From: a virus
DNA: 64,000 bases
IMG/VR virus record: IMGVR_UViG_3300037520_002383
Span: 1-64,000 of that record
Direction: 5' to 3' (one strand)
In this document: positions 1-37,294 of the stretch, piece by piece
Layout: every line of letters starts with the position of its first letter
How positions within the stretch are numbered: position 1 is the first letter of the stretch
Notes under the pieces: model-generated
Seen by the model: the letters and a program-made list of their open reading frames with translations, nothing else
Told to the model about the DNA's origin: nothing
Database searches by the model: none
Translations under genes and position numbers: made by a program

Positions 1-2422
1 CAGCAATCTCCGCATTACCAAAAAAGGCATTAAGGCCTGTAGTGGTGTTTGCCATTGTGACGTATCGGACGCCAAAATCAGTTGTCACGACTCGGCAGTT
101 TGCTGCGCTGCCCGAACTAACCATCACGGATCCAACGTAACAGCGGCTAGTAGTTCCGTCGTGGCCATTGCGATTAGGAGCAGTAGTTGAACCCAGCAGG
201 GTACCGGCAGTGGTCAGATAAATATATCTTTGTCCGTTACCTGTAAAGCCCATTCCGGAGATTGGGGCGGTAATAGTAGTGGAGTTTGAGTATACTGTAC
301 CATCGGCAAATCGGAACGAGCCACGCGATAGAGAAAAGGTAGCGCCATTGAAGAATAGGCCGCCACCGCCGATGACCTTAGAGGATTCTGCGCTCAAGGC
401 GCTATTGAGCCACAACTGTTGAGCGCGAACGATCTGTGCTCCGGCGGCCGTTATTTGAGCGTTACTGTCTCCGGCCAGGATCAATGCGTCTGCGCTGGCG
501 TCGTATTGCATACGATCTGTGAGAGCACCACCATCGTTCATGGTACTAAATCTCAGATCGATATCGTTGTCCGCAACCCTGTTGGTGCGGATCATCCATC
601 CGTCTGGCGGGTCGGCGGCGTCTGCATGTACCATGGATATTGCTACGTTGGTAGTGCCGACCGTCGTATTGCGCAGCTGCAGGGCCTCGCTGGATCCATC
701 TACCGCCGGAACCGCAGTGCCTGAGACCTGCACTCGCATGCCGCCGCCGGAACCGCCAACCGCCAAAAGCGCGGCCCCGGTGCCCGCCGTCGCCCTGACG
801 CCGACTCCCGTACCAAATCCCGTGCCCTGAACGCCATCGCTATTTCCGCCGCTGGCAACACCGATAACCCCAGCGCCACCCGAACCGCCCCCTTCACCGC
901 GGACGCCGTTACCGCTTGAGCTTCCAATACCCAAAACACCGTTGCCGGTTCCGACGCCACGCACACCCGTACCGGAGGCAGCTGAAATGGCCTGACCTAA
1001 AACGGATACCGGAGTTCCTGTCGTGGCATTGTTGAGGCCTTGAATGCCATACCCAGTAGCTGATGTCGTCACGCCATATACACCGGCAGTAGCGCCAGTG
1101 CCGCCGGTGCCCTGAACACCAACTCCCGTGCCGTCAGCCGTGCCCTCTAGTCCGTTGCCGTTACTGGCTGCAATCGCGGTATTTGAAATGGTGCCGGTCG
1201 TGTTGGCTCGCGGAGCCACTGTCGGTGTGCCGGCAACGGCATAGGACAACTGAACCGTACCCAACGAGGCGTTGGTAGCGGCGGCCACGAACGTGCGCCC
1301 GGCCTCATACTGCTTGTCGCGGAAGAAGACCTCGTTGCCGCGGCGCCAGGCGATAATGAAGCGACTGCCGGGAATCGCAGGTGCTCCCAACGTCGCCAGG
1401 TTCGCTACCTGCATCGTCAACGTCGCGGCGTTCGTGCTGCGATTGACGTCCACATACAGGCATTGATTGTCGGCCAGCGTCGCCGTGCCGTTGGTGATGG
1501 TGTTGTAGACGGCCGTGGAGTTGGCAAAGACGAGGTAGAGCGAAGTCCACTCGATGAGGCTGGTGCCAAGGGTCCAGCGGAAGTTGTCGCCATTCGGAAA
1601 GAGGCCGGTGCCGCCAAGGCACAGCTTGGTGTCGCGGTCGCTGTTGGCTGTGAACCAGCGCTCGCCGCCGCCGAGTTCCCAGAGGCGGGTCATCACGGCA
1701 TCTTGCCAATCCTTGCTGCTACCAATCGCCCGATCGCCGCCCGTGAACGCGGCATCGACGGTGCTGGCCTCAACGCTGCGCCCCTGCGGCCAAATAAAGG
1801 CATTCAGGTTATTGGCGTTAGAGCCACCAGAGGCCAATCGATATGCCATCTGTCGCGCATCGCTGATGCTTGTGACGCCACCGCTTGGGGTAACATTGAC
1901 GACCGCCAAGGGGCAGAGATGAGGGGTAGCGGCAAACTCCGTGCGCGAAATAACGAATCTGTACTTGAGGATGCGCGCCAGTGGCACCAAACGCGGGTTC
2001 TCCGTCCAGGATACGGTGTCCAAAAATGTAACGGTATCGGCCGTGGAGTCGTCGGCTTCGCGTCGCAGGTCGATGCCGACATAGTTATAGCCGGCACTGA
2101 AGCTACCCTCTACGTTGGCGTTGCTGGTAGATAGCGTTTCGTTGGGCGCGGAATCAGCGACTGTGAACACCGAACCGGCTTCGGTAGCCAGAGGATGAAT
2201 CAGCATACCACCGCCAACGACCACCTGCAGATTGGCTGCCGGCTGCCCCGTCATGCCCGACGACGCTATTGCAAAACCACGAATAACCAACGCCCGACTA
2301 CCCGCCAGAACACCACCGGCCAGGGCGTCAAAATCGGCGGCGACCGCCGACTCCAACATCCGTAGATGCGGCGCGTCAATGCGTTGTTGACCCAAAACAT
2401 TCAGTTGGCGCTTGACAGCCAT
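1..2422 (-). CDS. Tail fibre / appendage-like virion protein (3' end beyond window)
   Basis: The frame opens at an ATG (complement of 2420-2422) preceded by an AGGATGA Shine-Dalgarno. It stays open to base 1, giving at least 807 residues without a stop. The N-terminal part begins MAVKRQLNVLGQQRIDAPHL. The middle is rich in Gly, Thr, Ala and Ser and carries a glycine-rich run of short repeats around residues 400-560, with GVxG motifs such as VGVQGTGGTG, VRGVGTGNG and VRGEGG. This resembles the beta-helical stalks of phage fibres. It is the last gene of the minus-strand baseplate block, after the J and Kelch proteins, where fibres usually lie. The exact role is inferred from position and composition. 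It may be a baseplate-attached fibre or a receptor-binding protein. Confidence 0.7.
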   Translation of the reverse strand, partial: MAVKRQLNVLGQQRIDAPHLRMLESAVAADFDALAGGVLAGSRALVIRGFAIASSGMTGQPAANLQVVVGGGMLIHPLATEAGSVFTVADSAPNETLSTSNANVEGSFSAGYNYVGIDLRREADDSTADTVTFLDTVSWTENPRLVPLARILKYRFVISRTEFAATPHLCPLAVVNVTPSGGVTSISDARQMAYRLASGGSNANNLNAFIWPQGRSVEASTVDAAFTGGDRAIGSSKDWQDAVMTRLWELGGGERWFTANSDRDTKLCLGGTGLFPNGDNFRWTLGTSLIEWTSLYLVFANSTAVYNTITNGTATLADNQCLYVDVNRSTNAATLTMQVANLATLGAPAIPGSRFIIAWRRGNEVFFRDKQYEAGRTFVAAATNASLGTVQLSYAVAGTPTVAPRANTTGTISNTAIAASNGNGLEGTADGTGVGVQGTGGTGATAGVYGVTTSATGYGIQGLNNATTGTPVSVLGQAISAASGTGVRGVGTGNGVLGIGSSSGNGVRGEGGGSGGAGVIGVASGGNSDGVQGTGFGTGVGVRATAGTGAALLAVGGSGGGMRVQVSGTAVPAVDGSSEALQLRNTTVGTTNVAISMVHADAADPPDGWMIRTNRVADNDIDLRFSTMNDGGALTDRMQYDASADALILAGDSNAQITAAGAQIVRAQQLWLNSALSAESSKVIGGGGLFFNGATFSLSRGSFRFADGTVYSNSTTITAPISGMGFTGNGQRYIYLTTAGTLLGSTTAPNRNGHDGTTSRCYVGSVMVSSGSAANCRVVTTDFGVRYVTMANTTTGLNAFFGNAEIA

Positions 2423-2452: not shown

Positions 2453-2902
2453 TCAAAGATTGTTCGTGAATCCAGTAGCCTTCAGTTCAAGCTCGTTGTT
2501 CCAATGCAGGGCCGTGAAGGTGAAGGTGCCGGTCACCATGCCCCTGGATTCGGCGACAAACGACTGCTGTTGTACTGAACATTCGTCGGCTCGAAAAAAT
2601 ATAGTTTTGTCGCGGCGATTGAGAATCAACAAAGAAAAATAGCGCTCTTCTGGGATTTTTTCGGGCGGCGCAACAATACCACGACCCTCCAGACCACCTG
2701 TAGAGTGACGCCGCAGAAAGCCTACGGTACCCGAGATCTTCATGACCGTCGGCGCTAGTTCCTGCGCATGCATGACGTCAATAGCCATAACTTCGTCCCT
2801 CGGCGTTGCGGAGACAAAGTTGAAGGCCGTAACTTCGCCGAAAGGGTGTCCGTTTACGAAAACCAGCAGTTGAGCGCCGGTTATGTTTCTGGAGGCAGTC
2901 AT
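2453..2902 (-). CDS. Small tail-tube-like baseplate protein
   Basis: This is a 149-residue protein starting MTASRNITGAQLLVFVNGHP. Its ATG overlaps the stop of the upstream Kelch gene (ATGA), implying translational coupling. It has alternating beta-strand patterns, a central segment with VMKISGTVGFLRR and a C-terminal TGTFTFTALHWNNE. The size and strand pattern resemble the tail tube protein encoded at 52975-53454 (FVNG near the start, a long central loop, a final beta strand). I infer a tube-fold protein in the baseplate, such as a tube initiator or hub cap. The similarity is by eye only, and the gene could be an unrelated beta-sandwich structural protein. Confidence 0.55.
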   Translation of the reverse strand: MTASRNITGAQLLVFVNGHPFGEVTAFNFVSATPRDEVMAIDVMHAQELAPTVMKISGTVGFLRRHSTGGLEGRGIVAPPEKIPEERYFSLLILNRRDKTIFFRADECSVQQQSFVAESRGMVTGTFTFTALHWNNELELKATGFTNNL

Positions 2903-5900
2903 GTGATGTCATCCTCCTCTTGCGCCGCTGCGACTTCGGCCGTCAAGCCATCTCCACCCCAAACCCTTACGGCATCAGATAGCTTCTGCGAACCAGCCAT
3001 AGGATACCCGGCATTTCCCAGCCCCACATCGTCTGGATACAACACTTTTACATTCAGACCAGGACCGGCGGCGACGGCCGACCGCACGGCAGATTCAGCC
3101 GCAACGCGACCGGCATTGGAGTTCGTGACGTAAAAGGAGCCGCGGGTCTGCGCGTTTTCGGGGAAGCCGGGTGATTGCTGTGACAGCAATGTTACTTTGG
3201 CGCCTACGGCGTACGCATACGGCCAAATATACCGATTGTCGATAGCCAACTCCGTATTCGAAATCCGCCTCAGATAGGGTATAGGGTAGGCGGCGTCTTC
3301 GTAGCCGACCCGGATAGCCAACCAGCCGGGGGCATCGGGGAAGCTGGCGGCGTTAGCTAGCGCCAAGACACCGATCTGGGCATTCTTGGAGATGGCCGTG
3401 GTGATGGTCGACTCCGTTGACGTCAACAGGGGGCTGGCTTTGTCATCCCAAACATATGGACCGATGGCGCGGGCCTGCGCGCTAGCCGTCGTGGTCTTGT
3501 TCAATGTGATTGTGGCGCCGGGCGCCATCTCCGATCGCAGCACGTCCCCCGTTTCTAGACCCGATATCGTAAAGGACGTCGACGATGGAACCGACGTAAC
3601 GCGATGAACGCCATTGACGCGATGCGCCGGCGCAGCGTAATCGGAACCGGGTACGAAGACAGCCGTCACTGTTTGGGGCGTGAATGAAGTGCTGGTGAGA
3701 GAGCTGTTGCCGGTAGTGGCGTCTTCGCCACCGAAAAAGAAGCCGACGCCGCCGCTGACCACAGCTACGCCGTAGTCATAAGCAAATCCCGCCGTGGCAA
3801 ATCCTTCTGCGTTACTGAACGGAGCCAAGCTCCATTTGCCCGTTGGAATATCATAGACTTCAGTGGGGAAAATGGAGCTGGTAGCGAATGATCCTGCTTG
3901 ACGCATGCCGCCAATAACATAAACCTTAGTTCCGATTCGGAAGACCACCGGATTATATCGGCCATAGCGCAAACGCCCAGCCGGCGTCCAGGCGCCAGTG
4001 GCGACATCAAACATTTCCACCTCGTCTACCAGACGAGATACGGTTTCATTAGCTAATACGCGCCCAAACCCCCCAATCGCCAGTGCCCTACCACCGCCGA
4101 TGTCCACCACTCGATGCCGAAAGCGCGCTACGGCCATTCGTCCGGGGGTTGTCCAGGTGGGGGTAATGAGATTGCTGGCGAAGTTCGTGGAATCCAGTGG
4201 CGTCGTACCGAAACCACCACACCACAAGGCCGCAACGGGTTTTGTGGCATCGTCGATAGCCGACAAAGCACAGCCGGCATGTTCACTGCGGGCATCGGTG
4301 TCAGTGTTTGATAGGCCGACGGTAGACGCCGCGGCCACAGCCAGACCGTTCACGGCGGGATTGAAAACCGAGATGACGTTGGTGCGCGAAGAAACTGTGT
4401 CTTGGCCGCCAATAATCAATACTTGTTGACGCTGTGAGGCATCGAGAATCGTCAGCGCCAGAGGGAAGCGGCAGGCGGGGTGGGTGGTATTGGCGACAGT
4501 CAAGAAGCTGCCCACATTCGCGCCGCCAGTCGCCGACAAAAAGAGACGAGCGTTTTGTGTGAAAGTGGGGGTATTAGCGGTCTGGCCGCAGACAATAAAC
4601 GCGCCGATCCCTAGAGACCCTCTGTAGGATGAGGCACCTGAGTACGCGGCGGCATATCCGGTATCGGCGGTGGAATAGTGATTGTAAGAATAAACGGGAC
4701 GAGATGCCGCATCCAATGTGGTGCCCAGAAAGCGCATGACCTTGTAGGTAGAATAATAGGTCGCGGTGGTCCGACCGCCGTGAATGAAGATGTCGCCGTT
4801 ATTCAGCGCTACACCGGCGGCGCCGGTGCGAGCAACAAAGGAATCTAGCGAGCGTACGAAGCTAACGAAAGATTGACGGCTGGCGCCCGTGGTGCCCGTA
4901 GCGCCGGCGGCGCCATCGATGGGCACGGTCGTCAGGGGGTGGGTATATGAGGTCGGCCGAACATTATCCAGCGTAACGAAATCATTGGCCTGTAGGCCGT
5001 GAGCGACACCCGTAGTTACGGTTAGGGATCCGTTGGGGCCCAGGGTTGCCGAGAGATCGCCGAGAGCCGATGTCGTCTGTGCCGGCACATAAGCAGCCTT
5101 ATAGGCTTCTCGCGTTACGACTTTTGTAGTCGTTGGCAGATGCAGACGAATGGCGTTGCCGACGCCAGAGACCATGGCGCCGTTACTCGATGGCGCTGTG
5201 TAGGTAGCTCGATATACTTGCAGGTCATTGGCAGCCACCGACAAGGGACCGGCTTGCGTTACGGCCACGGGATTCACGATCGTCAGGGTCTGCAGATAAG
5301 CGCTTCCGGTCCACGTCACGGTAACGTCAGTGATTTCAAATGTTCCGCGATTGGCAACGTTCAGGTCGCTATCGCGTGCCAACAAATAATCACCAACACG
5401 CACATTCATCGCCGGAGTGCTGGTTGTGATGGCCACCGCCGCCTTATCGTTGCCTGGAAGCGAAATGGCATAAGTGCTGCCGGCGACAACGTTGGCTACC
5501 AACTCCGGAAAACGAAGTGGGTATTGAGCCAGGCCACCGACGACACGGATCTTAGAAGCCAACCCCAAGGTGGGAGAGTAAATCGAAACCCGATACAGTC
5601 CCGTGTCGGGGTTCAGGTTTGTCGCCGCCCAGGCCCTGCTGCCGAGCTGACGCAACTGACGGCTGATAGACGCCGCGACTTCGATGGCCTGAGCCTGACC
5701 AATAATAGCGAAATCGGCCGTAGAAAACACAATAGGATATATTGTGCCGTCTATATCAATCTGCAACTGCATCTGATCACTAAGCGCGTATGGTGCATCA
5801 ACTTGAGTTTGAATGACGGCCCTAACGGCGCTACTGCCATAGAATACTTCTAAAATCTCCCAGATCGCCTTGTAGGTGATTCTGTCTGATGACAGGCGAA

Positions 5901-6501
5901 TGGCGAGTTCACGGAAAACGTCGTCGCGCATCCCCACGGCCGCGGGGCGAGTCACGCCGAGTTCGCGCGCCAAACGATCCAGGTACTTGCCTTCGGCCGT
6001 ACTCAAAAACATCTGATCCCAGGCGCCGCGAGCCGTATCCTGTAGATGCTGGTCGCCACGAGACAGCGCATATACCAACGCATCCCAGCCCTCACCCACG
6101 AAAGCCGGCGACAAAAACTGCCGCAGCACGGTTTCGGGCGTGACATCCTCCGCCCCGCCATTTCTCAGATCCTGAGGCTGTGTCGATACGACACTAAAAA
6201 TAGCCACTCGCGAGGATGCATCTAAAGCCTCACCCGTCACCGCCGTAACGCCAGAAGTCAGCAGACTCCAGCTACCGGCAGCCAAGAGGTTGGATGCAAA
6301 CAGCGTAAACGCCCGAGGATCATCGGGAACAGCTACGACGCGAATGATCCGCGACGATCCGGGGCCCGACAACTGATAGTTGACGGGATTCAAGGCATCG
6401 TTGCTGTTGACATCAGAAACGGCCTGAGCGGCGGCGCTGAATACCACGCGGATGGCCGCGGGGCCAACCGATGATACCGTTTGAATCGCAAAAACAGTCA
6501 T
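2899..6501 (-). CDS. Large baseplate protein with internal Kelch-like propeller
   Basis: The ATG at 6501 is chosen because AAAGGG lies five bases upstream; a GTG two codons earlier sits too close to that site. The product is about 1200 residues. The first ~240 residues include GKYLDRLARELGVTRP, like the baseplate wedge family (LDxLGxxxGV-type segment), and an Ig-like beta start. Residues ~550-930 hold Kelch-type repeats: FIHGGRTT, VLIIGGQ, RALAIGGFGR, KVYVIGGM and SGGVGFFFGG, each preceded by hydrophobic strands and followed by W or Y about 20-30 residues on (GAWTPAGRLRYGR, GKWSLAPF). Such repeats normally build a six- or seven-bladed beta-propeller used for binding. The gene lies just downstream of J, so a wedge-to-fibre connector carrying a binding propeller is likely. 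Confidence 0.75.
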   Translation of the reverse strand: MTVFAIQTVSSVGPAAIRVVFSAAAQAVSDVNSNDALNPVNYQLSGPGSSRIIRVVAVPDDPRAFTLFASNLLAAGSWSLLTSGVTAVTGEALDASSRVAIFSVVSTQPQDLRNGGAEDVTPETVLRQFLSPAFVGEGWDALVYALSRGDQHLQDTARGAWDQMFLSTAEGKYLDRLARELGVTRPAAVGMRDDVFRELAIRLSSDRITYKAIWEILEVFYGSSAVRAVIQTQVDAPYALSDQMQLQIDIDGTIYPIVFSTADFAIIGQAQAIEVAASISRQLRQLGSRAWAATNLNPDTGLYRVSIYSPTLGLASKIRVVGGLAQYPLRFPELVANVVAGSTYAISLPGNDKAAVAITTSTPAMNVRVGDYLLARDSDLNVANRGTFEITDVTVTWTGSAYLQTLTIVNPVAVTQAGPLSVAANDLQVYRATYTAPSSNGAMVSGVGNAIRLHLPTTTKVVTREAYKAAYVPAQTTSALGDLSATLGPNGSLTVTTGVAHGLQANDFVTLDNVRPTSYTHPLTTVPIDGAAGATGTTGASRQSFVSFVRSLDSFVARTGAAGVALNNGDIFIHGGRTTATYYSTYKVMRFLGTTLDAASRPVYSYNHYSTADTGYAAAYSGASSYRGSLGIGAFIVCGQTANTPTFTQNARLFLSATGGANVGSFLTVANTTHPACRFPLALTILDASQRQQVLIIGGQDTVSSRTNVISVFNPAVNGLAVAAASTVGLSNTDTDARSEHAGCALSAIDDATKPVAALWCGGFGTTPLDSTNFASNLITPTWTTPGRMAVARFRHRVVDIGGGRALAIGGFGRVLANETVSRLVDEVEMFDVATGAWTPAGRLRYGRYNPVVFRIGTKVYVIGGMRQAGSFATSSIFPTEVYDIPTGKWSLAPFSNAEGFATAGFAYDYGVAVVSGGVGFFFGGEDATTGNSSLTSTSFTPQTVTAVFVPGSDYAAPAHRVNGVHRVTSVPSSTSFTISGLETGDVLRSEMAPGATITLNKTTTASAQARAIGPYVWDDKASPLLTSTESTITTAISKNAQIGVLALANAASFPDAPGWLAIRVGYEDAAYPIPYLRRISNTELAIDNRYIWPYAYAVGAKVTLLSQQSPGFPENAQTRGSFYVTNSNAGRVAAESAVRSAVAAGPGLNVKVLYPDDVGLGNAGYPMAGSQKLSDAVRVWGGDGLTAEVAAAQEEDDIT

Positions 6502-6510
6502 GGCCACCCT

Positions 6511-9500
6511 TTACTCGCCGATGATAGCAACTGTGATGTCTTGTTCGGCGTCCAAAACGAAGGCCTTTTCGTAGGGCTGTACGGCAATCAGATCGTTATC
6601 GCCGTTGTAGCTGGGGGAGACAATAGACACAGCCAAAACGCCATTCACACTGGCGGCAGCAGATACGATATCGCTGATTACCACTGACTTGCCGACGCCA
6701 AAGGTATTGATGGCGCCCGCCACTGCCGATCGCACATAAGCTATAGCATCCTGCGGCAACACGCCAAGTCGTAGGCGAATGGCGAGGGAGACCTGAATCC
6801 TCTTGACCAGGGGGCCGCTGATGGCGATGTTGGTACCCGCAGCCACAACTCCCGGATAGGCCTCTGGTTCGCGCAAATCCCCCATGACAACTCGATTGAC
6901 TTCAGCCAACAGGCCCGTATTATACCGGTAAGCATCGATTCCTGGAACGATGCTAGTATCAAAATCCAGTTTATCGAGTGAAGCCAAAACAGCGCCATAA
7001 ACATCGGAAATCTCGTAATCACCTGGGATTGAACGAGAGTATGTGATTGCGCCCGTGGTGTCCGTGTCATGCACCATGTCCATCTTTACATCCACCAACA
7101 AAGGGTTGGTGGCATGAGGAGAAATGGATTCGATTCGACCGATATGTCGGACTTTGCTGGCGGCAATGAATCGATACTTGGAGGCGTTGAGTCCGAGGGC
7201 AACGGTCGGCGTCGTTTGCGCCACCCACGCCCTTTCGGAGGTGTCAAGTTGAATGGATTGTGTAGTATAGCTAACGCTTTGAATGCGCCAAAGTCCTTTA
7301 TTTGCCACACCCCATTCTTCACCATCAATAGCAAAGTAATCACCAGCCATAGGACCACTGGTAACGTATCTAATGCTGACGGTCTTACCGTCTTCTTCGA
7401 TGGCATTGGGGTTTTCGAACCACACGGCGTATGCGCCGGCTGTATTGGAGACAGCCGAGGCGATTATCCTGAAAGTGCCGGTATTTGCGGTTGAGACAGG
7501 CGAAGATCCGCCTTGAGTGATATTGATCATTTTTTCGGTGGCGCTGGGGGGGGTCGTAAAGCCAGCCATCATCACGAAGCGCCCTTGTTTACGCACCTGG
7601 ATTGTAGTAAGGGAGGTCGTGGCCAGTAATCCAGCGCTGATAATGCTGGTGCCGCCAAACGTCAAGTTGCCGGCAGCGTCGTTTGCCGTCAGCGTATTAT
7701 CGATCGCCAGCGCGCGACTAGGCGCTGCGGCATTGGCGACTTCTGCCATCATACCGGCGCTAAAGCCCAGAGACTGATCGGCGGGGATGGACACGACTAC
7801 CGGCCCTGACGATGCATTGAGGGCCGTTAGGGAGCCAACGATTGACGCCGACGCCGCGTTTGCCGTTCCCCCCTGGATCTGCACGGATCCGCCGCTACCG
7901 GGTGTGACGCTAGCGATCTGAGGTGCGCGGCCGTTAGCGGCCAGCCCCACCTCTGCCACCTGCGCAAGGCCGGAAATACCCAGGGTATTGAGCCAGCGCA
8001 CAACGTCGATGGCCGTGACGGGGGCAATACGGATCTCTTCGTTGATCCAATCGCTGTTGCTGGCTAACGCCGCCGTGATCGGGGCCTTGAACGCCAACGT
8101 GTAGTTGCCGGCCAATGTGCCGGGGCTCGTGGTCGTAGAGACCCAGTTCACGCCATCGATAAGTGCTGCGTACTCTACAAGCTCATTGACGGTACCGGGG
8201 CTTTCGTCGCGCGACGACAGCGCGATTGTGCCTGAACCCGTGCCCGTAACTGTAGCGGTTACGGGGCACGTCGCGCCCAAGGCATTCACTGAGGCAGCAA
8301 TCGCCGTCGCCGTGTTCGCTGTTCCATCTATGGGGAAAATAGAGAGATTCGAAGCAGAACCAAGCGATTGATACGTCAATGTCGTACCGGGTGTCCCCAG
8401 ATTGTCATCGTAGTCGGCGTACCCTTGAATGTAGCGATCTCCGAGATTGTTGATGCGGAAGCTGCGATTGCGCCAGGCCAGTGGAATGAAAGTAGAGTCC
8501 GCGAGTCGAATGATGTCACCGACGATAACCGAACCGGTGTTCAGACGCCGCTCAACGGTGTCCGTCGAGACGCTGCCGATGTTGGCAATGGGCCCAGCCG
8601 CCGTCCCGGCTTCGGCATATGTAATGGTCGTTGCTCCGACAGTCGTGATGACTTTCAGACCCGAAGAAAAGCTGCCCGAAGTCGAAGCTAGATAGATGAC
8701 GTCACCGGCAACCAATCCGTGATTGCTTACATTATAGAGACCCATGGTTAGGCCGAGTGTCAATGTGACGTCAGTGGTAGTCCGTGAGGCGCTGGTCACG
8801 GGAAAGCCGCAACAGATGGTCAATACGTCGAGGCCGCCGACTGTATTGTATCCATAGCCGATTCGCGTTGAGTCCCTGGGAAGATAGGTGTCGTCGACTC
8901 GCGCCGCGCCAGAAGGCAGCCTCACCGATACGAGGTTGTAAGCACGCAAGGCGGCTTGGGTCGGGCGATTATCCACGGTTACCTGAAGCGGCTGCGACGC
9001 TGCCAGAGGATATGCGTAACGCAATCGCGCCCAGTCGCCATCTGCACCAAATCGCTTCCAGCGCCAGAGAATACGCTTGTTGGCGTCGGCGCTGTGCGTC
9101 AACAGACGCGACTTCATGTACACCGCAAAATCATTGAAACTATAACCAAGACCGAAAGCGCCGGTAAGGCTTAGGTTGGAGTTGTCGGCATCCACCATGT
9201 CATTCGATGCACCATAGGTGGCGGTGGTGGGCTTCAATCGTCGATACATCGGCACAACAAAACGTTTGGAATCGATATCGCCGTCGATTACCGTCGTCAT
9301 CGTATCGTTGGGGCCAATCGCGTAGGCGCTGGCAAGATAAAGGGCATCGGACTGCGCCCAGAAGCGAGGGGCAGATGAGCGCAGCGTCAGGTCGGTATTG
9401 GTGACCGTGGTGATGCCCGTGATCATTGAATGAAAATCAGAGTTGTTGCCCCAACGCGGAGTTGTGCCAACAAAGTTTGGTGTTTTTTCGCCGACAACAA

Positions 9501-12153
9501 ACTTATTCCATGATCTAGCAACTTCCGAGCTACTGAAGACCTCAACGTTATTCAGGGCCGTGCTCGCACTGCTGGTGATACGATGAACGAAATCAATAGT
9601 GCCGATCTCGGTATTCCCAGCGACCACCGACGCTAAATGGCCAGTCAGATTTTGGGTAGCAGAAGTGGTTTCGCTGAAGCCCAGCAACTGCGCTTCAAGA
9701 TCCTGAGCCACCAGAGCAATGTCGCCATCCAACCCGAACGAGTTGGTTTTGACGCGGACGCGCGTCGTGCGATATACCGAAGCCGTAGCTCCCGCCAGCT
9801 GATTATTGATGATGGTAGCCAAAGACGATGCCGTATAGGTTCCGGCCACCACCTGCACATTCACGGGCTCATGTGACGAACGGATAACACGCAAGTCACC
9901 GACGGCAAAGGTAAATGAAGCGGTATCAGCCACGCCCGTGGCGATGGTGTCAAAGGCCAATGTGGCACCGGATGCCAATACCGTAGCCACGCGCCAGACC
10001 CCGCGAAGTCCGGCATTGACAGCCGTATCCCAGAGCACCAACCAGTCGCCGGAAACGACATTGGCAAATGGCGTGCCGGTTGCTGCCGTCAAGTGCCAGC
10101 GTTCGCCCCAGGCGCCGGTGGCGTTTTTCGTCAAACCGAAAGAAGTCAGGGTATCAACTGAAATCGTGACGCGACTGGCTCCTCCATCCACAACCCACCA
10201 CATATTGCCGGTAGTAGCGGTGGTGACTGTCGACAACGCCGCGCTCTGAACAAACCCACGGGTATTGAAAGTGCCGACTGTCAGGGAATCGCCCAGGCTC
10301 AAGGGAGTTGCCAGACGCAACTCGCCCGTGTTGCGATTCAGAGTGTAGTCTGCGTCGCGTCCCGTTGCCGTTTTGATAGCAAACATGCCCTTGTCGGTCA
10401 GGGTGCCGCCGGTGATGGCGATGCTGGCGCGGCTGCTACGATCGGCGTTCGAAATCAGCTGAATAGCCGATCCAACGGCGCTGGCCGTGATGCCGGGTAT
10501 CGTATAGTTCAACACCTTGACCCAGGCCTCAACGGTATTTTGACCAAAAGTGCTATAACCCGTTCCGGCGTTGACGAAGCTAGCGGCATTGAATGTATAC
10601 GTCACGGCTGGCGTACCATCAACTGACACGATCAGGGTCTCAGACGTTGAGCTAAACGGCAGCCAGCTGGACTTGATGGCGCTAATGATTGCGGCTTCGC
10701 GGCCATCTTTGCTCAGCAATACGTCGTTCTTGTACAAGCGAATGGTTTCGATTTTGGTAACGCCGAAGGCTAGAGCTGAGTTGGCATCAGAGCCAGTCGT
10801 CGCCGTCATCACCTGGATGTCTTCGTTGCTTTCTTCTTTGGCGAAGATGGCTACGCCCGTGCCGCCGTTGATGGTGCGCGCCGAGAAAGGAAGGGTGCTG
10901 TTGCGATTGATTGAGGCCGCAATCTCATAGGCGGTTGCCGCAACGACAGTGCGGAAATCTTGTGGATCAAAATAGTGATCATACTCAAAACCGCCAACAG
11001 CCACAGCTAAATGGCTATCGGTAGCCAAGACATAGGGGGCGGTGTTTTGGGTCGCTACATAAGCCTTGGCGACTGGTCGCAGACTCAGCTGGAAGAACTC
11101 TTCGCCGCCAGTGGCTGAATCCACTAGCGCTTCGATCGCCACAGAGCCATCGCTTTCTTCGAAGCCCGTGCCATCATCGATATACAGCGTCGTGGGCTGA
11201 TTTTCACGCCGCACTATCGCGGCCGACACGACGCTCTTGCTATCGATGTCACTTGAGACGCCCAGCGCCGCGTTTTGAACCGCCAGATCTGTTCCGCGAC
11301 TACGAGTGGATCGAGTAGCGATGATGCGGTCTCGGTAGTCGGCATCGGATTCAGAGTCACGACCAGAGACGAGCGCCGATGGATTGCTGACGGCAGCGCC
11401 AACAAAGGGGGTCGTATTGAGGCTGCTAATGGCCCCAGCAGCCACATTGCCTACTGTGCCCGGAGTCTGGCAGGCCACAAAGACGCCCTCGATGGAGGTC
11501 TCGCCATCCAAGATAGTAGCGGAAAAAATGGTATTGAATGATACGGGCTGTGTCGTCAGTCCACGGATCGTTGATGCCTGAGTGCCAGCTGGAATCTGAC
11601 GATTGCCACCCTGTGCCAAAATCACCGACTCGCCTTGTTGATGAAAGCGAGTGGTGGCGGTGCTGAGAGTCATCTGCCAGAAGCCGCCTCCGGTCGCAGA
11701 AAGGGCACTGTAGGCAACAGGGCCTTCGTAGTTTGCGGTGCCGCGGCCGATATAGACAGAACCTGTGGCGGGCCAGCCCGTGGCATCGGTGATGTAGATG
11801 GTTGTGGAGCCGGCTGTGGGCGCGGGTTTGGCGCTTGACAACGGAGTTGACTTCTTGGTGAAGCTGGTGTCGGTGATCGTCACCAGGCCCGTGGCCGCTC
11901 GCTGACTACGCCTCGACACTCCCTCGCCTGCGCCAATCCGATCCAAGGTCGATCCAGAACTGCGCTCCAGACTCACGGCGTTCATGGCCGCAAATACGTC
12001 TTGAGTCGATCGCAGGTCGCTTTGCGCCGCGGCCTCCAAAATAGACAAAATGGGCGAGGCCGGCTTCAGTTTTGGGACGCGCTTCCGCGCCAAGAAACCG
12101 GCGACCATGTCGCCCAGGATTGCATTGTAGGAGCGGGCTTGAGGCTGTGCCAT
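6511..12153 (-). CDS. Baseplate J-like protein, very large (1880 aa)
   Basis: Residues 1-310 resemble the baseplate J / gp47 family. An N-terminal helical region is followed by LDRIGAGEGVSRR, an IPAGTQ motif and the typical SGRDSESDADYRDRI segment near residue 270. The last ~110 residues return to the family: LRLGVLPQDAIAYVRSAV, then an alpha/beta section with VGKSVVISDIVSAA and VNGVLAVSIVSP. Between them lie more than 1200 residues of Thr/Ser/Ala-rich beta-type sequence. Ordinary J proteins have about 300-500 residues, so the middle is a large insertion. J proteins connect the wedge ring around the hub. The start is ATG with only a weak upstream purine run. The Kelch gene follows after a short gap. 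Confidence 0.85.
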   Translation of the reverse strand: MAQPQARSYNAILGDMVAGFLARKRVPKLKPASPILSILEAAAQSDLRSTQDVFAAMNAVSLERSSGSTLDRIGAGEGVSRRSQRAATGLVTITDTSFTKKSTPLSSAKPAPTAGSTTIYITDATGWPATGSVYIGRGTANYEGPVAYSALSATGGGFWQMTLSTATTRFHQQGESVILAQGGNRQIPAGTQASTIRGLTTQPVSFNTIFSATILDGETSIEGVFVACQTPGTVGNVAAGAISSLNTTPFVGAAVSNPSALVSGRDSESDADYRDRIIATRSTRSRGTDLAVQNAALGVSSDIDSKSVVSAAIVRRENQPTTLYIDDGTGFEESDGSVAIEALVDSATGGEEFFQLSLRPVAKAYVATQNTAPYVLATDSHLAVAVGGFEYDHYFDPQDFRTVVAATAYEIAASINRNSTLPFSARTINGGTGVAIFAKEESNEDIQVMTATTGSDANSALAFGVTKIETIRLYKNDVLLSKDGREAAIISAIKSSWLPFSSTSETLIVSVDGTPAVTYTFNAASFVNAGTGYSTFGQNTVEAWVKVLNYTIPGITASAVGSAIQLISNADRSSRASIAITGGTLTDKGMFAIKTATGRDADYTLNRNTGELRLATPLSLGDSLTVGTFNTRGFVQSAALSTVTTATTGNMWWVVDGGASRVTISVDTLTSFGLTKNATGAWGERWHLTAATGTPFANVVSGDWLVLWDTAVNAGLRGVWRVATVLASGATLAFDTIATGVADTASFTFAVGDLRVIRSSHEPVNVQVVAGTYTASSLATIINNQLAGATASVYRTTRVRVKTNSFGLDGDIALVAQDLEAQLLGFSETTSATQNLTGHLASVVAGNTEIGTIDFVHRITSSASTALNNVEVFSSSEVARSWNKFVVGEKTPNFVGTTPRWGNNSDFHSMITGITTVTNTDLTLRSSAPRFWAQSDALYLASAYAIGPNDTMTTVIDGDIDSKRFVVPMYRRLKPTTATYGASNDMVDADNSNLSLTGAFGLGYSFNDFAVYMKSRLLTHSADANKRILWRWKRFGADGDWARLRYAYPLAASQPLQVTVDNRPTQAALRAYNLVSVRLPSGAARVDDTYLPRDSTRIGYGYNTVGGLDVLTICCGFPVTSASRTTTDVTLTLGLTMGLYNVSNHGLVAGDVIYLASTSGSFSSGLKVITTVGATTITYAEAGTAAGPIANIGSVSTDTVERRLNTGSVIVGDIIRLADSTFIPLAWRNRSFRINNLGDRYIQGYADYDDNLGTPGTTLTYQSLGSASNLSIFPIDGTANTATAIAASVNALGATCPVTATVTGTGSGTIALSSRDESPGTVNELVEYAALIDGVNWVSTTTSPGTLAGNYTLAFKAPITAALASNSDWINEEIRIAPVTAIDVVRWLNTLGISGLAQVAEVGLAANGRAPQIASVTPGSGGSVQIQGGTANAASASIVGSLTALNASSGPVVVSIPADQSLGFSAGMMAEVANAAAPSRALAIDNTLTANDAAGNLTFGGTSIISAGLLATTSLTTIQVRKQGRFVMMAGFTTPPSATEKMINITQGGSSPVSTANTGTFRIIASAVSNTAGAYAVWFENPNAIEEDGKTVSIRYVTSGPMAGDYFAIDGEEWGVANKGLWRIQSVSYTTQSIQLDTSERAWVAQTTPTVALGLNASKYRFIAASKVRHIGRIESISPHATNPLLVDVKMDMVHDTDTTGAITYSRSIPGDYEISDVYGAVLASLDKLDFDTSIVPGIDAYRYNTGLLAEVNRVVMGDLREPEAYPGVVAAGTNIAISGPLVKRIQVSLAIRLRLGVLPQDAIAYVRSAVAGAINTFGVGKSVVISDIVSAAASVNGVLAVSIVSPSYNGDNDLIAVQPYEKAFVLDAEQDITVAIIGE

Positions 12154-12242: not shown

Positions 12243-14834
12243 CTACCTAACGACATCAAACGACACGGGAATAAGCTGTTCTACGCCATTGACGCCAACG
12301 TGAATGATCTGACGAGCAACGGGGCCAACCTTTTGTACGGCAGCAAACTCAACTCGCGCAAAATCGCTGTCTTGTGACAACAACCCGCGAGTTGCTTCAA
12401 GCAGCTGTTCGGCGTCCAAATCAGCGGTGCTGATGCCCACCGGCACCTCGATGCCCACCGAGGGATGCTGAAGCAGGCTGCCACGAGGCGTTGACACCAG
12501 AATCCTCAGCCGCTGCAGGATGTTGTTGAGGCCCACGGCCCAGGGCGTGTCGCCATCTGCCGTTACGATGATATCGTTCGCAGAGGTAAGGGCCAAATCA
12601 ATGCCACCGGCATCCAAAAGCGTCTGAAAGCTAGGCACCCCCGGCACATCTCGATTGACGAGACTGGGGTCGACGGCTTGCGGGCTAGGAATAAAGATCT
12701 GTTGAGTGCTATTGACTGTATCCGGAAGATAAGTATGAAGATACGCGCCGGCCGTTGTGGTGTACAATGACATATCATTATTGCCGTCTACGTTGATATA
12801 ATAAAAGCCATCGCTGATCTTTTCGATAGATGTGATGCGGCGAGTGGTTTGCGTGATTGTACGACTTCCAATCTGAATCATCTGACCGACATAAAGATTG
12901 CTGGCGTCGCTGATAGCCAGAGTATTTCCGTTGCCATTGACGAGAAGGGACAACTCAAACCCCGTTTCATCGACATACGGCGCCCGCAAGCCATTCAACA
13001 CCGCAATCTCGTGCCAGCGGTTGGCATCGCCCAGGTATTGACGCGCTAGGGATTCGAGCGTCCCACCATAAGGAAAGGGGACGGCAAACTTCGACACCGG
13101 TTGCTGGAAGGCGACGCCGTTTCCGCGCGCCAGACCAGCTACATATGACAAAGCAATATTGGTATTGCTCTGATCCTCTTGACGCAGGATCAGCTTATCG
13201 AAAGCCATAACGGTGTTATTCAAGGCCCACAATATCTCAAAGTCGGCGTCAGTGGCCTCGCGAGTCTGCGGCTTTGGTACTCGGTCGGTCGTGGCGTCAA
13301 ATGTTGCCGAGCCCTGCCCAACTGCATCTGCAAAGTCCTGCATGATTTCACGCACAGCCATCTGTCGTTCCAACAAGTCACTGCGCCGCAGTCCGCGAAC
13401 GCGATTGACTTCATCTCGAATCTGACTGGCGATGTTGGGTGCGAAGTTGACGCGCCGTACGTCAACGGCGCTAAAGGCGGCGTGGGCCGACAAAGGGTTA
13501 TCGAAGAGCTTTTGAATAGCGAGTGGGCTTCGGGAATCGCCGGGCACGGATTCAAGGGTCTTGGAGCCGCCCTTGGTCATCGCCTGTTCAGCAGTCGATT
13601 GTCCTTCTTGAATCTGTTTGCCTTGTGACGACGAATCCTTGAACGTCAAGGCGTCTTGGGATCTTTTTAGGGCAGCAGTCGTCTGTTGGCGAGCCTCTAT
13701 GAGATTGGGGCCCAAGCCATCCCAGCTCTTTGTGATTGAGCCGGCCCCGGCTTTGATGACGTTGGCCGGAAGGTCGGCGACTGACACCGACAGGCCCGCC
13801 AAGTCTTTCACCAACAAAACGGTTTCGCGGAATATGGAAAAGAGTGCATTGTTGGCGGCATCGCCGCGTATGCCCGCCAGTAGATCCTTGCTTCTGATCA
13901 CGGTGTCTCTGGCTGCAGCCAATACTTCTAGGGTTTTGGTCAAGTTTCCAAGTCCGCCGGTGTCGATCTCCAGGGGATGAATGGGTCCGGGACCACTCAA
14001 CTCAATGCGTCGCCAGGCCTTGGCGGAAATACGATAGTTGTAACGCAGGGGCGACGCCGCCGAACGCTGAACCTCAAAAGACTGCGGCGTAATGAGATAT
14101 ACCGATTGATCTTTCCACATCGCCAAAGCCAAACGCATATTACGGCCAGTAGCCGTCATCTTGACGCGAGCGTATCGCTCAAAGAACTGCTGCAGCAGTC
14201 GCATCTGGTAATATCCGCTGCCGCGACTAATCGATCCAATCTCGTCCCTACCAAACTCCGTCGGCGTCATGAGATTGGCGCGGGGTACGAGTCGCGTGGC
14301 CGTCTCCGCCACAGCCAGAGTCGACAATACAGTGCCGCCGGCTAGCGCCAAAAGCTCTGGATTCAAGGCATCTGGACGCCCCTTAGTTGCTGAAGAGCGT
14401 AGAGGTACGACTCCCGTGGTGCCGGCGATGTTGATGAGGCGAAACGGCGCTCCGCCATGTTCCTCGACGATACCCTCTAGTGTCGCGCGGGTGTCGATGG
14501 CAAAGGGCGTGCTGATGGTCAGAGACTCAGGCGGAATCGGCAACGTAAAAGACCATTGACCATCAGGTAGCTGCACGGGTTCGTATCTTCCGTTCGCGTA
14601 TTGGACGACAATGAACTGATAAGGATATAGTTTGTTCCAGCGAACGGGGTCGATTGTATTATACGCTGGCTCCCATGCCGCATCGATCGCCGCCTCCATG
14701 CTCCATGGGCCACTGCGAACGGGAACGGCATTGGTGCGCGACGCTAGCTGGGCCATGGAGCTAATGGTGCCGGCACCCTGGAGGGCTCCGGCGGCGTTAG
14801 CGACTGCACCTTGAGTTCCCGCGACTGCACTCAT
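12243..14834 (-). CDS. Baseplate protein with LysM-like and C-terminal gp25-like domains
   Basis: I start it at the ATG 14834 (MSAVAGTQGAV), giving 863 residues. A TTG at 14879 would add 15. A LysM-like segment occurs near residue 585 (GTLESLARQYLGDANRWHEI, then AVLNGLRAPY), as in the T4 gp53-type proteins that clamp neighbouring wedges. The last ~100 residues (GLNNILQRLRILVSTPRGSL, HPSVGIEVPVG, then FARVEFAAVQ) match the gp25/W-like wedge fold. The two functions are usually separate genes, so this looks like a fusion. It is the first gene of the left minus-strand block. A TATACA hexamer lies 10 bases before the ATG. Confidence 0.8.
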   Translation of the reverse strand: MSAVAGTQGAVANAAGALQGAGTISSMAQLASRTNAVPVRSGPWSMEAAIDAAWEPAYNTIDPVRWNKLYPYQFIVVQYANGRYEPVQLPDGQWSFTLPIPPESLTISTPFAIDTRATLEGIVEEHGGAPFRLINIAGTTGVVPLRSSATKGRPDALNPELLALAGGTVLSTLAVAETATRLVPRANLMTPTEFGRDEIGSISRGSGYYQMRLLQQFFERYARVKMTATGRNMRLALAMWKDQSVYLITPQSFEVQRSAASPLRYNYRISAKAWRRIELSGPGPIHPLEIDTGGLGNLTKTLEVLAAARDTVIRSKDLLAGIRGDAANNALFSIFRETVLLVKDLAGLSVSVADLPANVIKAGAGSITKSWDGLGPNLIEARQQTTAALKRSQDALTFKDSSSQGKQIQEGQSTAEQAMTKGGSKTLESVPGDSRSPLAIQKLFDNPLSAHAAFSAVDVRRVNFAPNIASQIRDEVNRVRGLRRSDLLERQMAVREIMQDFADAVGQGSATFDATTDRVPKPQTREATDADFEILWALNNTVMAFDKLILRQEDQSNTNIALSYVAGLARGNGVAFQQPVSKFAVPFPYGGTLESLARQYLGDANRWHEIAVLNGLRAPYVDETGFELSLLVNGNGNTLAISDASNLYVGQMIQIGSRTITQTTRRITSIEKISDGFYYINVDGNNDMSLYTTTAGAYLHTYLPDTVNSTQQIFIPSPQAVDPSLVNRDVPGVPSFQTLLDAGGIDLALTSANDIIVTADGDTPWAVGLNNILQRLRILVSTPRGSLLQHPSVGIEVPVGISTADLDAEQLLEATRGLLSQDSDFARVEFAAVQKVGPVARQIIHVGVNGVEQLIPVSFDVVR

Positions 14835-14947
14835 GAGCACAACCTGTATAGGAGGGGGAAGTAGGTGGCGCTCGTTCAAGCGGCGCCACCGGTCACAGCT
14901 CCCAAGATTGCGCTGACGACATGATAATCAAACGAGAGGCAGAGGAA

Positions 14948-35944: not shown

Positions 35945-37294
35945 ATGCCCCGCAAGCCCCGTTCGAAGGTCGCCCATCGCAAGATCTTTGTGCTCGATAC
36001 CAATGTATTGTTGCATGATCCAAGAGCCATATTCTCTTTTGGCGACAATGATGTAGTCATCCCCATCTATGTTGTCGAGGAAATCGATACATTCAAGAAG
36101 GATGCCAGCGAGCTGGGGCGGAATGCGCGGGAAGTTAGCCGCCACCTCGATGAACTGCGGGCCGCGGGCTCTCTGGCCAGAGGCGTGCCGTTGCCCAAGG
36201 GCGGCAGCCTGCGGGTGGCCACGACGCACCTTGAGCTGCCCGAAGAGGTGACCACCGACCGCGGCCAAGACAGCAAGATCATGGCCGTGGCGTTAGACCT
36301 CAGCAGCTGCAGCGACCAGAAGGTCGTCTTCATCACCAAGGATACGAACCTGCGTATCCGCGCCGACGCCGTCGGCATCTATACCGAGGACTTTGAGCCC
36401 GAGCAGGTGGTTGCCATCGATGACCTCTATCACGGCTGGCAGGAGATCGATGTCGCCGAGGAAGTCATCCACGACTTCTACACCGCCGGCGCCTGCCGCC
36501 TGCCTGATGCCGTCTACGGCCCCAACCAGTACCTGTGCCTGAAGGCGCGTGGCAACCCCGGCTACAGCGCCATCGGCCGCGTCAAGCCGGCTGAGGGCGG
36601 TGGTTGGCTGCTGGCGCCCTTGGCTGCACACCCCGGCGGCGTCTGGGGCCTGAAGCCCAAGAACCGGGAGCAGTCGTTTGCCCTCGATGCGCTGATGGAC
36701 GACGACATCAAACTGGTGACGCTCGTCGGCAAGGCGGGCTGCGGCAAGACGCTGATGGCCATCGCCGCCGGCCTCGCCAAGGTCACTGACAGCCACAGCT
36801 TCCAGAAGCTGCTGGTATCGCGCCCCGTCTTCCCGCTGGGCCGCGACATCGGCTACCTGCCGGGGACGGTGGAGGAGAAGCTGAACCCCTGGATGCAGCC
36901 GATCTTCGACAACGTCGAGTTCCTGATGGGGCTGACGACGAAGGAGAAGAAGAAGGGCCGCAGCCATAAGGAGTTGATTGATCTGGGTCTGGTGCAGATT
37001 GAGCCCCTGACATACATCCGCGGCCGCAGCATTCCGCAGCAGTACATGATCGTCGACGAGGCGCAGAACCTGACGCCGCATGAAGTCAAGACCATCATCA
37101 GCCGCGCCGGCGAGGGCACCAAGATCGTGTTGACGGGCGACCCCTACCAGATCGACAACCCCTACGTCGATCAGACCAACAACGGCCTCGTCCACGTCGT
37201 CAACCGCTTCCGCGGCGAGAAGATCGCGGCGCACGTCATGCTGACGAAGGGCGAGCGGTCGCCGCTGGCTGAGATCGCCACCAACCTGCTGTAG
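35945..37294 (+). CDS. PIN-PhoH family RNase/ATPase (PhoH2-like)
   Basis: This 449-residue protein has an AAAGGAG site. Residues ~12-140 are a PIN nuclease domain: FVLDTNVLLHD with the first acidic residue, the conserved VVEEID and GQDSKIMAVA, and FITKDTNLRIRA. Residues ~225-449 are the PhoH ATPase: Walker A GKAGCGKT near residue 261, the RPVFPLGRDIGYLPG segment, and Walker B YMIVDEAQN near 368 with VLTGDPYQID. In bacteria PIN-PhoH proteins are ATP-dependent RNA-cleaving and unwinding enzymes. Most phage PhoH proteins lack the PIN part, so the full form is notable. Phage-driven RNA turnover is a plausible role. Confidence 0.92.
   Translation: MPRKPRSKVAHRKIFVLDTNVLLHDPRAIFSFGDNDVVIPIYVVEEIDTFKKDASELGRNAREVSRHLDELRAAGSLARGVPLPKGGSLRVATTHLELPEEVTTDRGQDSKIMAVALDLSSCSDQKVVFITKDTNLRIRADAVGIYTEDFEPEQVVAIDDLYHGWQEIDVAEEVIHDFYTAGACRLPDAVYGPNQYLCLKARGNPGYSAIGRVKPAEGGGWLLAPLAAHPGGVWGLKPKNREQSFALDALMDDDIKLVTLVGKAGCGKTLMAIAAGLAKVTDSHSFQKLLVSRPVFPLGRDIGYLPGTVEEKLNPWMQPIFDNVEFLMGLTTKEKKKGRSHKELIDLGLVQIEPLTYIRGRSIPQQYMIVDEAQNLTPHEVKTIISRAGEGTKIVLTGDPYQIDNPYVDQTNNGLVHVVNRFRGEKIAAHVMLTKGERSPLAEIATNLL

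Follow-up and report, generated by a model that had tools for sequence, protein, structure and literature searches.

A predicted Kelch propeller at the core junction of a probably wedge-like protein from a phage baseplate operon

A gene at positions 2899..6501 on the minus strand of a viral contig raises the question of how a protein encoded among baseplate genes comes to contain Kelch repeats, and what these repeats might do there. The stretch of DNA that was analysed (the window) comprises positions 1 to 64,000 of the IMG/VR record IMGVR_UViG_3300037520_002383, a viral contig of 82.9 kb. The gene encodes 1200 aa when read from an ATG (full-length relatives: L001, L009 and L037); an alternative start is the GTG at 6507, which gives an ORF of 2899-6507. 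All neighbours described here lie on the same strand. Upstream is the gene of a Baseplate_J-like protein of 1880 aa (6511..12153; PF04865, E = 1e-12; phrog_6 baseplate wedge subunit, E = 2e-23), which is itself preceded by a gene for a tail-tube-initiator / LysM-like baseplate protein of 878 aa (12243..14879), which matches a tail-tube initiator and contains a stretch resembling LysM. Downstream are a small protein of 149 aa (2453..2902) and a fibre-like ORF with GTGxGVxG repeats (2..2422), which is cut by the contig end and of which 807 aa are present. On the plus strand, the window also encodes a PhoH-like protein with a PIN domain (35945-37294; PhoH E = 1e-47).

A preliminary description of this DNA had placed Kelch blades between residues ~550 and 930 and had named profile searches for blade repeats and structure prediction as checks. 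Both recovered the propeller. In a Pfam search of the 1200-aa protein, Kelch_1 matched with E = 1.1e-13 (50.8 bits against a cut-off of 20.1), and Kelch_6 (2.5e-8) and Kelch_4 (4.5e-6) also exceeded their cut-offs; the matches sit at residues 559-585 and ~790-935. Across the complete 82.9-kb contig, Kelch_1 matches in two places only, both of them within this gene. The top PDB sequence match of the protein is the Kelch domain of human NS1-BP (E = 6e-9). A blade HMM built from the orthologue of Myxococcus phage Mx1 scored 28.1 bits on the insert, and the maximum among 500 shuffled sequences was 5.7.

The AlphaFold2 model, which was computed from an alignment of 18 rows and has a mean pLDDT of 67, shows strands in a propeller-like arrangement between residues ~535 and ~950, with a local pLDDT of about 45-87. 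Seven strands with a double or single glycine at their end were found near residues 576, 639, 699, 763, 811, 865 and 925; they are separated by 48-64 residues, and most are followed by a strand pair. When the model was compared with the PDB by Foldseek, all of the top 50 matches were propellers of the Kelch type; besides Kelch domains, they include galactose oxidases and the designed, Kelch-like SAKe proteins, and the best match had E = 4e-14 and a TM score of about 0.69 by target length. By prediction, the protein thus contains a toroid of four-stranded blades of the Kelch type. Seven HMM repeats were counted in L059 and L061, and six in Mx1 by a model that was built from those same six. The agreement between sequence and the modest-confidence model confirms a Kelch propeller of six or seven blades at residues ~535-950, and with it the blades that had been proposed.

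This propeller (residues ~534-950, 3652..4902) is embedded in a larger protein, all parts of which are again given on the minus strand. An Ig/Fn3-like all-beta domain forms the N-terminus (residues 1-105, 6187..6501; pLDDT 80-88 in the AlphaFold2 model) and is missing from the Mx1 orthologue and some relatives. It is followed by a conserved N-core with a helical start and an alpha/beta remainder (residues 122-333, 5503..6138), for which 18 relatives show a mean pairwise identity of 43% and near-constant length, and by a core middle that ends in the motif LP[AT]TTxxVxR (residues 334-470, 5092..5502). Beyond the propeller lies the conserved C-core with the signature GPYxxD ... YPxDVGLGNxGxP (residues 1012-1200, 2902..3468; 41% mean pairwise identity). 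Two further motifs, HGLxxGDxV on the N-terminal side (residues 478-520, 4942..5070) and NGxxxVxxVPSxTxFT on the C-terminal side (residues 955-1005, 3487..3639), bracket the propeller in most relatives. Judged from sequence, they look like the two halves of a single putative small beta domain that is split by the propeller. By eye, L071 has an apparently uninterrupted beta domain without a propeller, and similar uninterrupted stretches are seen elsewhere in L006 and in the Baseplate_J-like protein of the window; a regular-expression search for an unsplit copy returned just two look-alikes.

Among 50,697 phage records, the only match to the protein was that of Mx1 (WNM70275.1, in OR576727), which had been deposited as "kelch repeat protein". 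Mx1 is a Myxococcus phage with a long contractile tail (PMC10720576). The two proteins share gene order, both cores and the position of the propeller, but they are only 32% identical, and the Mx1 protein is shorter (982 aa), has no N-terminal Ig-like domain and has clearer blades (Kelch_1 E = 2e-32). In scans of IMG/VR, L001 (68-69%) was the single close relative, and about 55 others were distant, most of them with 21-40% identity; a search of GTDB genomes with two short patterns found no relatives. Kelch models were matched at E <= 0.001 by at least 38 of 40 long relatives checked, with each contig counted once. The best viral fold match, found in BFVD, is A0A6J5KZ41, annotated as "Kelch repeat type 1" from an uncultured Caudovirales phage. 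The alignment spans the model from end to end (E = 1e-89, 25% identity), but this protein is longer (1479 aa) and uncharacterised.

The propeller is not a constant part of the family. Using HMM anchors in the N-core (residues 122-333) and the C-core (1012-1190), we measured the distance between the cores, which is 572-690 aa in proteins with one propeller and 972-1127 aa in larger forms. In at least eight relatives without a propeller, the cores are ~150 aa apart compared with ~650 aa where it is present: 149-203 aa in L028, L029, L048, L049, L054, L055 and L072, and 69 aa in L062. Pfam gave no matches in L028, L062 and L072, and the blade HMM none in L048, L049, L054 and L055. The propeller-free L028 protein (538 aa) is encoded between a Baseplate_J-like gene and a small gene, the same position as in the window. 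In a tblastn comparison with the Mx1 Kelch gene, 96% of L028 was covered in two pieces over 2.8 kb, with the propeller between them. The family thus has a conserved two-part core with an optional propeller that is inserted at the core junction. On a tree of the core sequences, the label "Kelch" changes at least three times, where gain is not separable from loss (the tree is unrooted) and a few split genes received the label as a default, among them L075 and L071, the latter of which probably lacks Kelch. L048 and L054 are neighbours of the Kelch-bearing L063 on this tree. Inserts of about 260-300 aa, for which Pfam found no match, occur in L064, L065 and L070, a well-supported clade with cores 411-455 aa apart.

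The propeller is also under looser constraint than the cores. In 18 sequences, mean pairwise identity is 27% in the Kelch region as compared with 43% and 41% in the N- and C-core, and the Kelch region varies in length from 309 to 408 aa, whereas core lengths are near-constant. In a comparison of the window with L001, the Kelch region has a dN of 0.27 and the cores have 0.18-0.19; dS is saturated, which makes dN/dS unusable. Because the excess of dN in the propeller is also modest, these values do not demonstrate diversifying selection on it.

Whether the protein belongs to the baseplate was judged mainly from its surroundings. The order Baseplate_J gene, Kelch gene, small gene is kept in Mx1 and in distant relatives (a similar small gene also follows the family gene in L001, L020, L028, L038 and L071), PHROG matches to baseplate and wedge families were found but are weak, and the BFVD fold neighbours of the model include virion structural proteins. 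The genes of P2 gpI and Mu gp48 likewise come right after a Baseplate_J/gp6-like gene and ahead of the fibre. However, a small extra gene intervenes here, P2 gpI and Mu gp48 are about 180 aa long and free of inserts, and hhalign comparison of the N-core with either of them gave a probability below 1%. When the propeller-free alignment and the N-core were used as queries against PDB sequences, only CRP matches at chance level or nothing came back. A fold search with a model of the propeller-free L028 (pLDDT 63) gave weak matches to FliD and a tailspike with low TM scores, and was set aside. Because gene order and weak PHROG matches are accompanied by a negative comparison with gpI and gp48, we prefer "wedge-like" to "wedge protein". 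The "baseplate wedge-type protein" of the preliminary description is thus retained in a weaker form: the product is a baseplate-operon protein that is probably wedge-like. A core without significant match to solved baseplate proteins, together with the negative gpI and gp48 comparison, would also suit a protein that acts outside the virion or baseplate and whose neighbourhood is incidental. In view of the conserved gene order, the PHROG matches and the virion structural proteins among the BFVD neighbours, we regard this as improbable.

As to function, we lean towards a baseplate-region structural protein in which the conserved two-part core carries the inserted Kelch propeller as an accessory adhesin for the host surface; virion location, exposure of the propeller and ligand binding are the parts of this proposal that we infer. 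The propeller, inserted at the junction of the two-part core, would interrupt the putative small beta domain and so project from the scaffold. Several copies around the baseplate could then make low-affinity contacts with a glycan or protein of the host surface, and these contacts would assist adsorption beside the fibre encoded downstream, which may be the main receptor binder. A binding module on a conserved scaffold is favoured because the propeller is optional, loosely constrained, accompanied by surface-type modules and devoid of conserved catalytic residues, and binding of a host-surface ligand is its most likely role. Kelch propellers are, however, often docking modules between proteins, and the one described here might act as a structural clamp that holds adjacent subunits of the baseplate or provides a dock for the fibre encoded downstream, without host contact. 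The small gene and the fibre-like gene come next after the Kelch gene, and most long relatives have Kelch, as would be expected of such a clamp. We nevertheless consider it rather unlikely, since L028 is a propeller-free orthologue in the same gene position and seven more relatives also do without, the propeller diverges faster and is more variable in length than the cores, and unrelated ORFs can interrupt the gene in or beside the propeller region. A relative of galactose oxidase, glyoxal oxidase or sialic-acid mutarotase that works as an enzyme on a surface polysaccharide could be suspected from the Glyoxal_oxid_N and NANM matches of some relatives and from the galactose oxidases among the fold matches. 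Nearly all of these Pfam matches are below the curated cut-offs and lie over Kelch blades. In 24 relatives, the near-invariant propeller residues are the ones that Kelch blades would be expected to have (GG, R, E, W, with a few others), and no Cys, Tyr or His is found in the invariant or near-invariant columns. With no conserved Cys, Tyr or His to serve as catalytic ligands, the enzyme was dropped as a very improbable explanation.

Propellers have been described in other phages. The receptor-binding protein Gp45 of the Staphylococcus phage phi11 presents a five-bladed propeller at the baseplate and has been proposed to hold a sugar, the propeller of PhiKZ gp131C is located at the baseplate periphery, and a role in receptor binding has been proposed for both and for PRD1 P2 (PMC4901313). 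Gp45 resembles the protein of the window in presenting a beta-propeller at the baseplate, a likeness for which we claim no homology; it has five blades, forms a trimer and has a coiled-coil stem. Among jumbo phages, mass spectrometry identified the Kelch protein CBB_552 as part of the virion (PMC5259590), and BFVD entries of PhiPA3, Noxifer and Phabio are fold matches; these proteins share a Kelch-type propeller with ours. Kelch propellers had initially been called unusual in phage wedge-type proteins, which is only partly right, as the Mx1 orthologue already bore the name and jumbo-phage Kelch proteins exist (PMC5259590). As far as the literature searched shows, it is the insertion pattern across the family that is new. 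If the adhesin proposal is right, Mx1-like phages have an extra recognition module within the baseplate scaffold, and proteins catalogued merely as "kelch repeat protein" gain a possible role. Since Mx1 has been isolated and infects a model bacterium, the proposal can be tested. Relatives with and without the propeller provide natural before-and-after pairs for how a baseplate protein gains a binding fold of 400-500 aa and yet assembles.

Other modules are also found at this site. In L006, Laminin_G_3 is located between Kelch matches, and L083 combines Kelch with laminin-G. Several family genes consist of two ORFs instead of one; in L060, the N-core is followed by a pectate-lyase-type ORF (PF12708, E = 3e-11) and then by an ORF that resumes the core and contains Kelch. 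It is conceivable, though speculative, that the core junction is a general docking site, at which a loop of the small beta domain accepts Kelch, with laminin-G inside the propeller and tailspike-like ORFs beside it. Host recognition in this large, mostly uncultured phage group would then be re-tooled by nested insertion into the baseplate and not by swaps of fibre tips.

Further interruptions of the gene were noted. Between the cores of L017, L052, L056, L082, L083 and L084 there are two or three ORFs, sometimes overlapping, which may reflect gene fission or assembly errors. In L034 (6274-7104; contig shared with L004 and L011), an upstream ORF ends with the Ig-like start, which is thus separated from the core ORF, and a similar layout occurs in L046 and L047. 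The gap in L034 contains, by eye, an HNH-endonuclease-like frame; an Rfam search of L034 and L046 for introns gave no known intron. The split N- and C-cores of L071 are separated by a 311-aa ORF (3506-4441) with a repeated S-x-D-G-x-x-W and no Pfam match, which is possibly another type of propeller. The gene is split after the N-core in L020 (6539-10202) and also in L021 and L026, and in L020 three ORFs of 450, 243 and 523 aa precede the Kelch/C-core ORF; the 243-aa ORF, which has no Pfam match, appears lectin-like by eye. In L038 (8486-10207), two ORFs interrupt the Kelch-bearing gene ahead of the C-core ORF, the second of which encodes a methyltransferase (PF13578, E = 9e-15).
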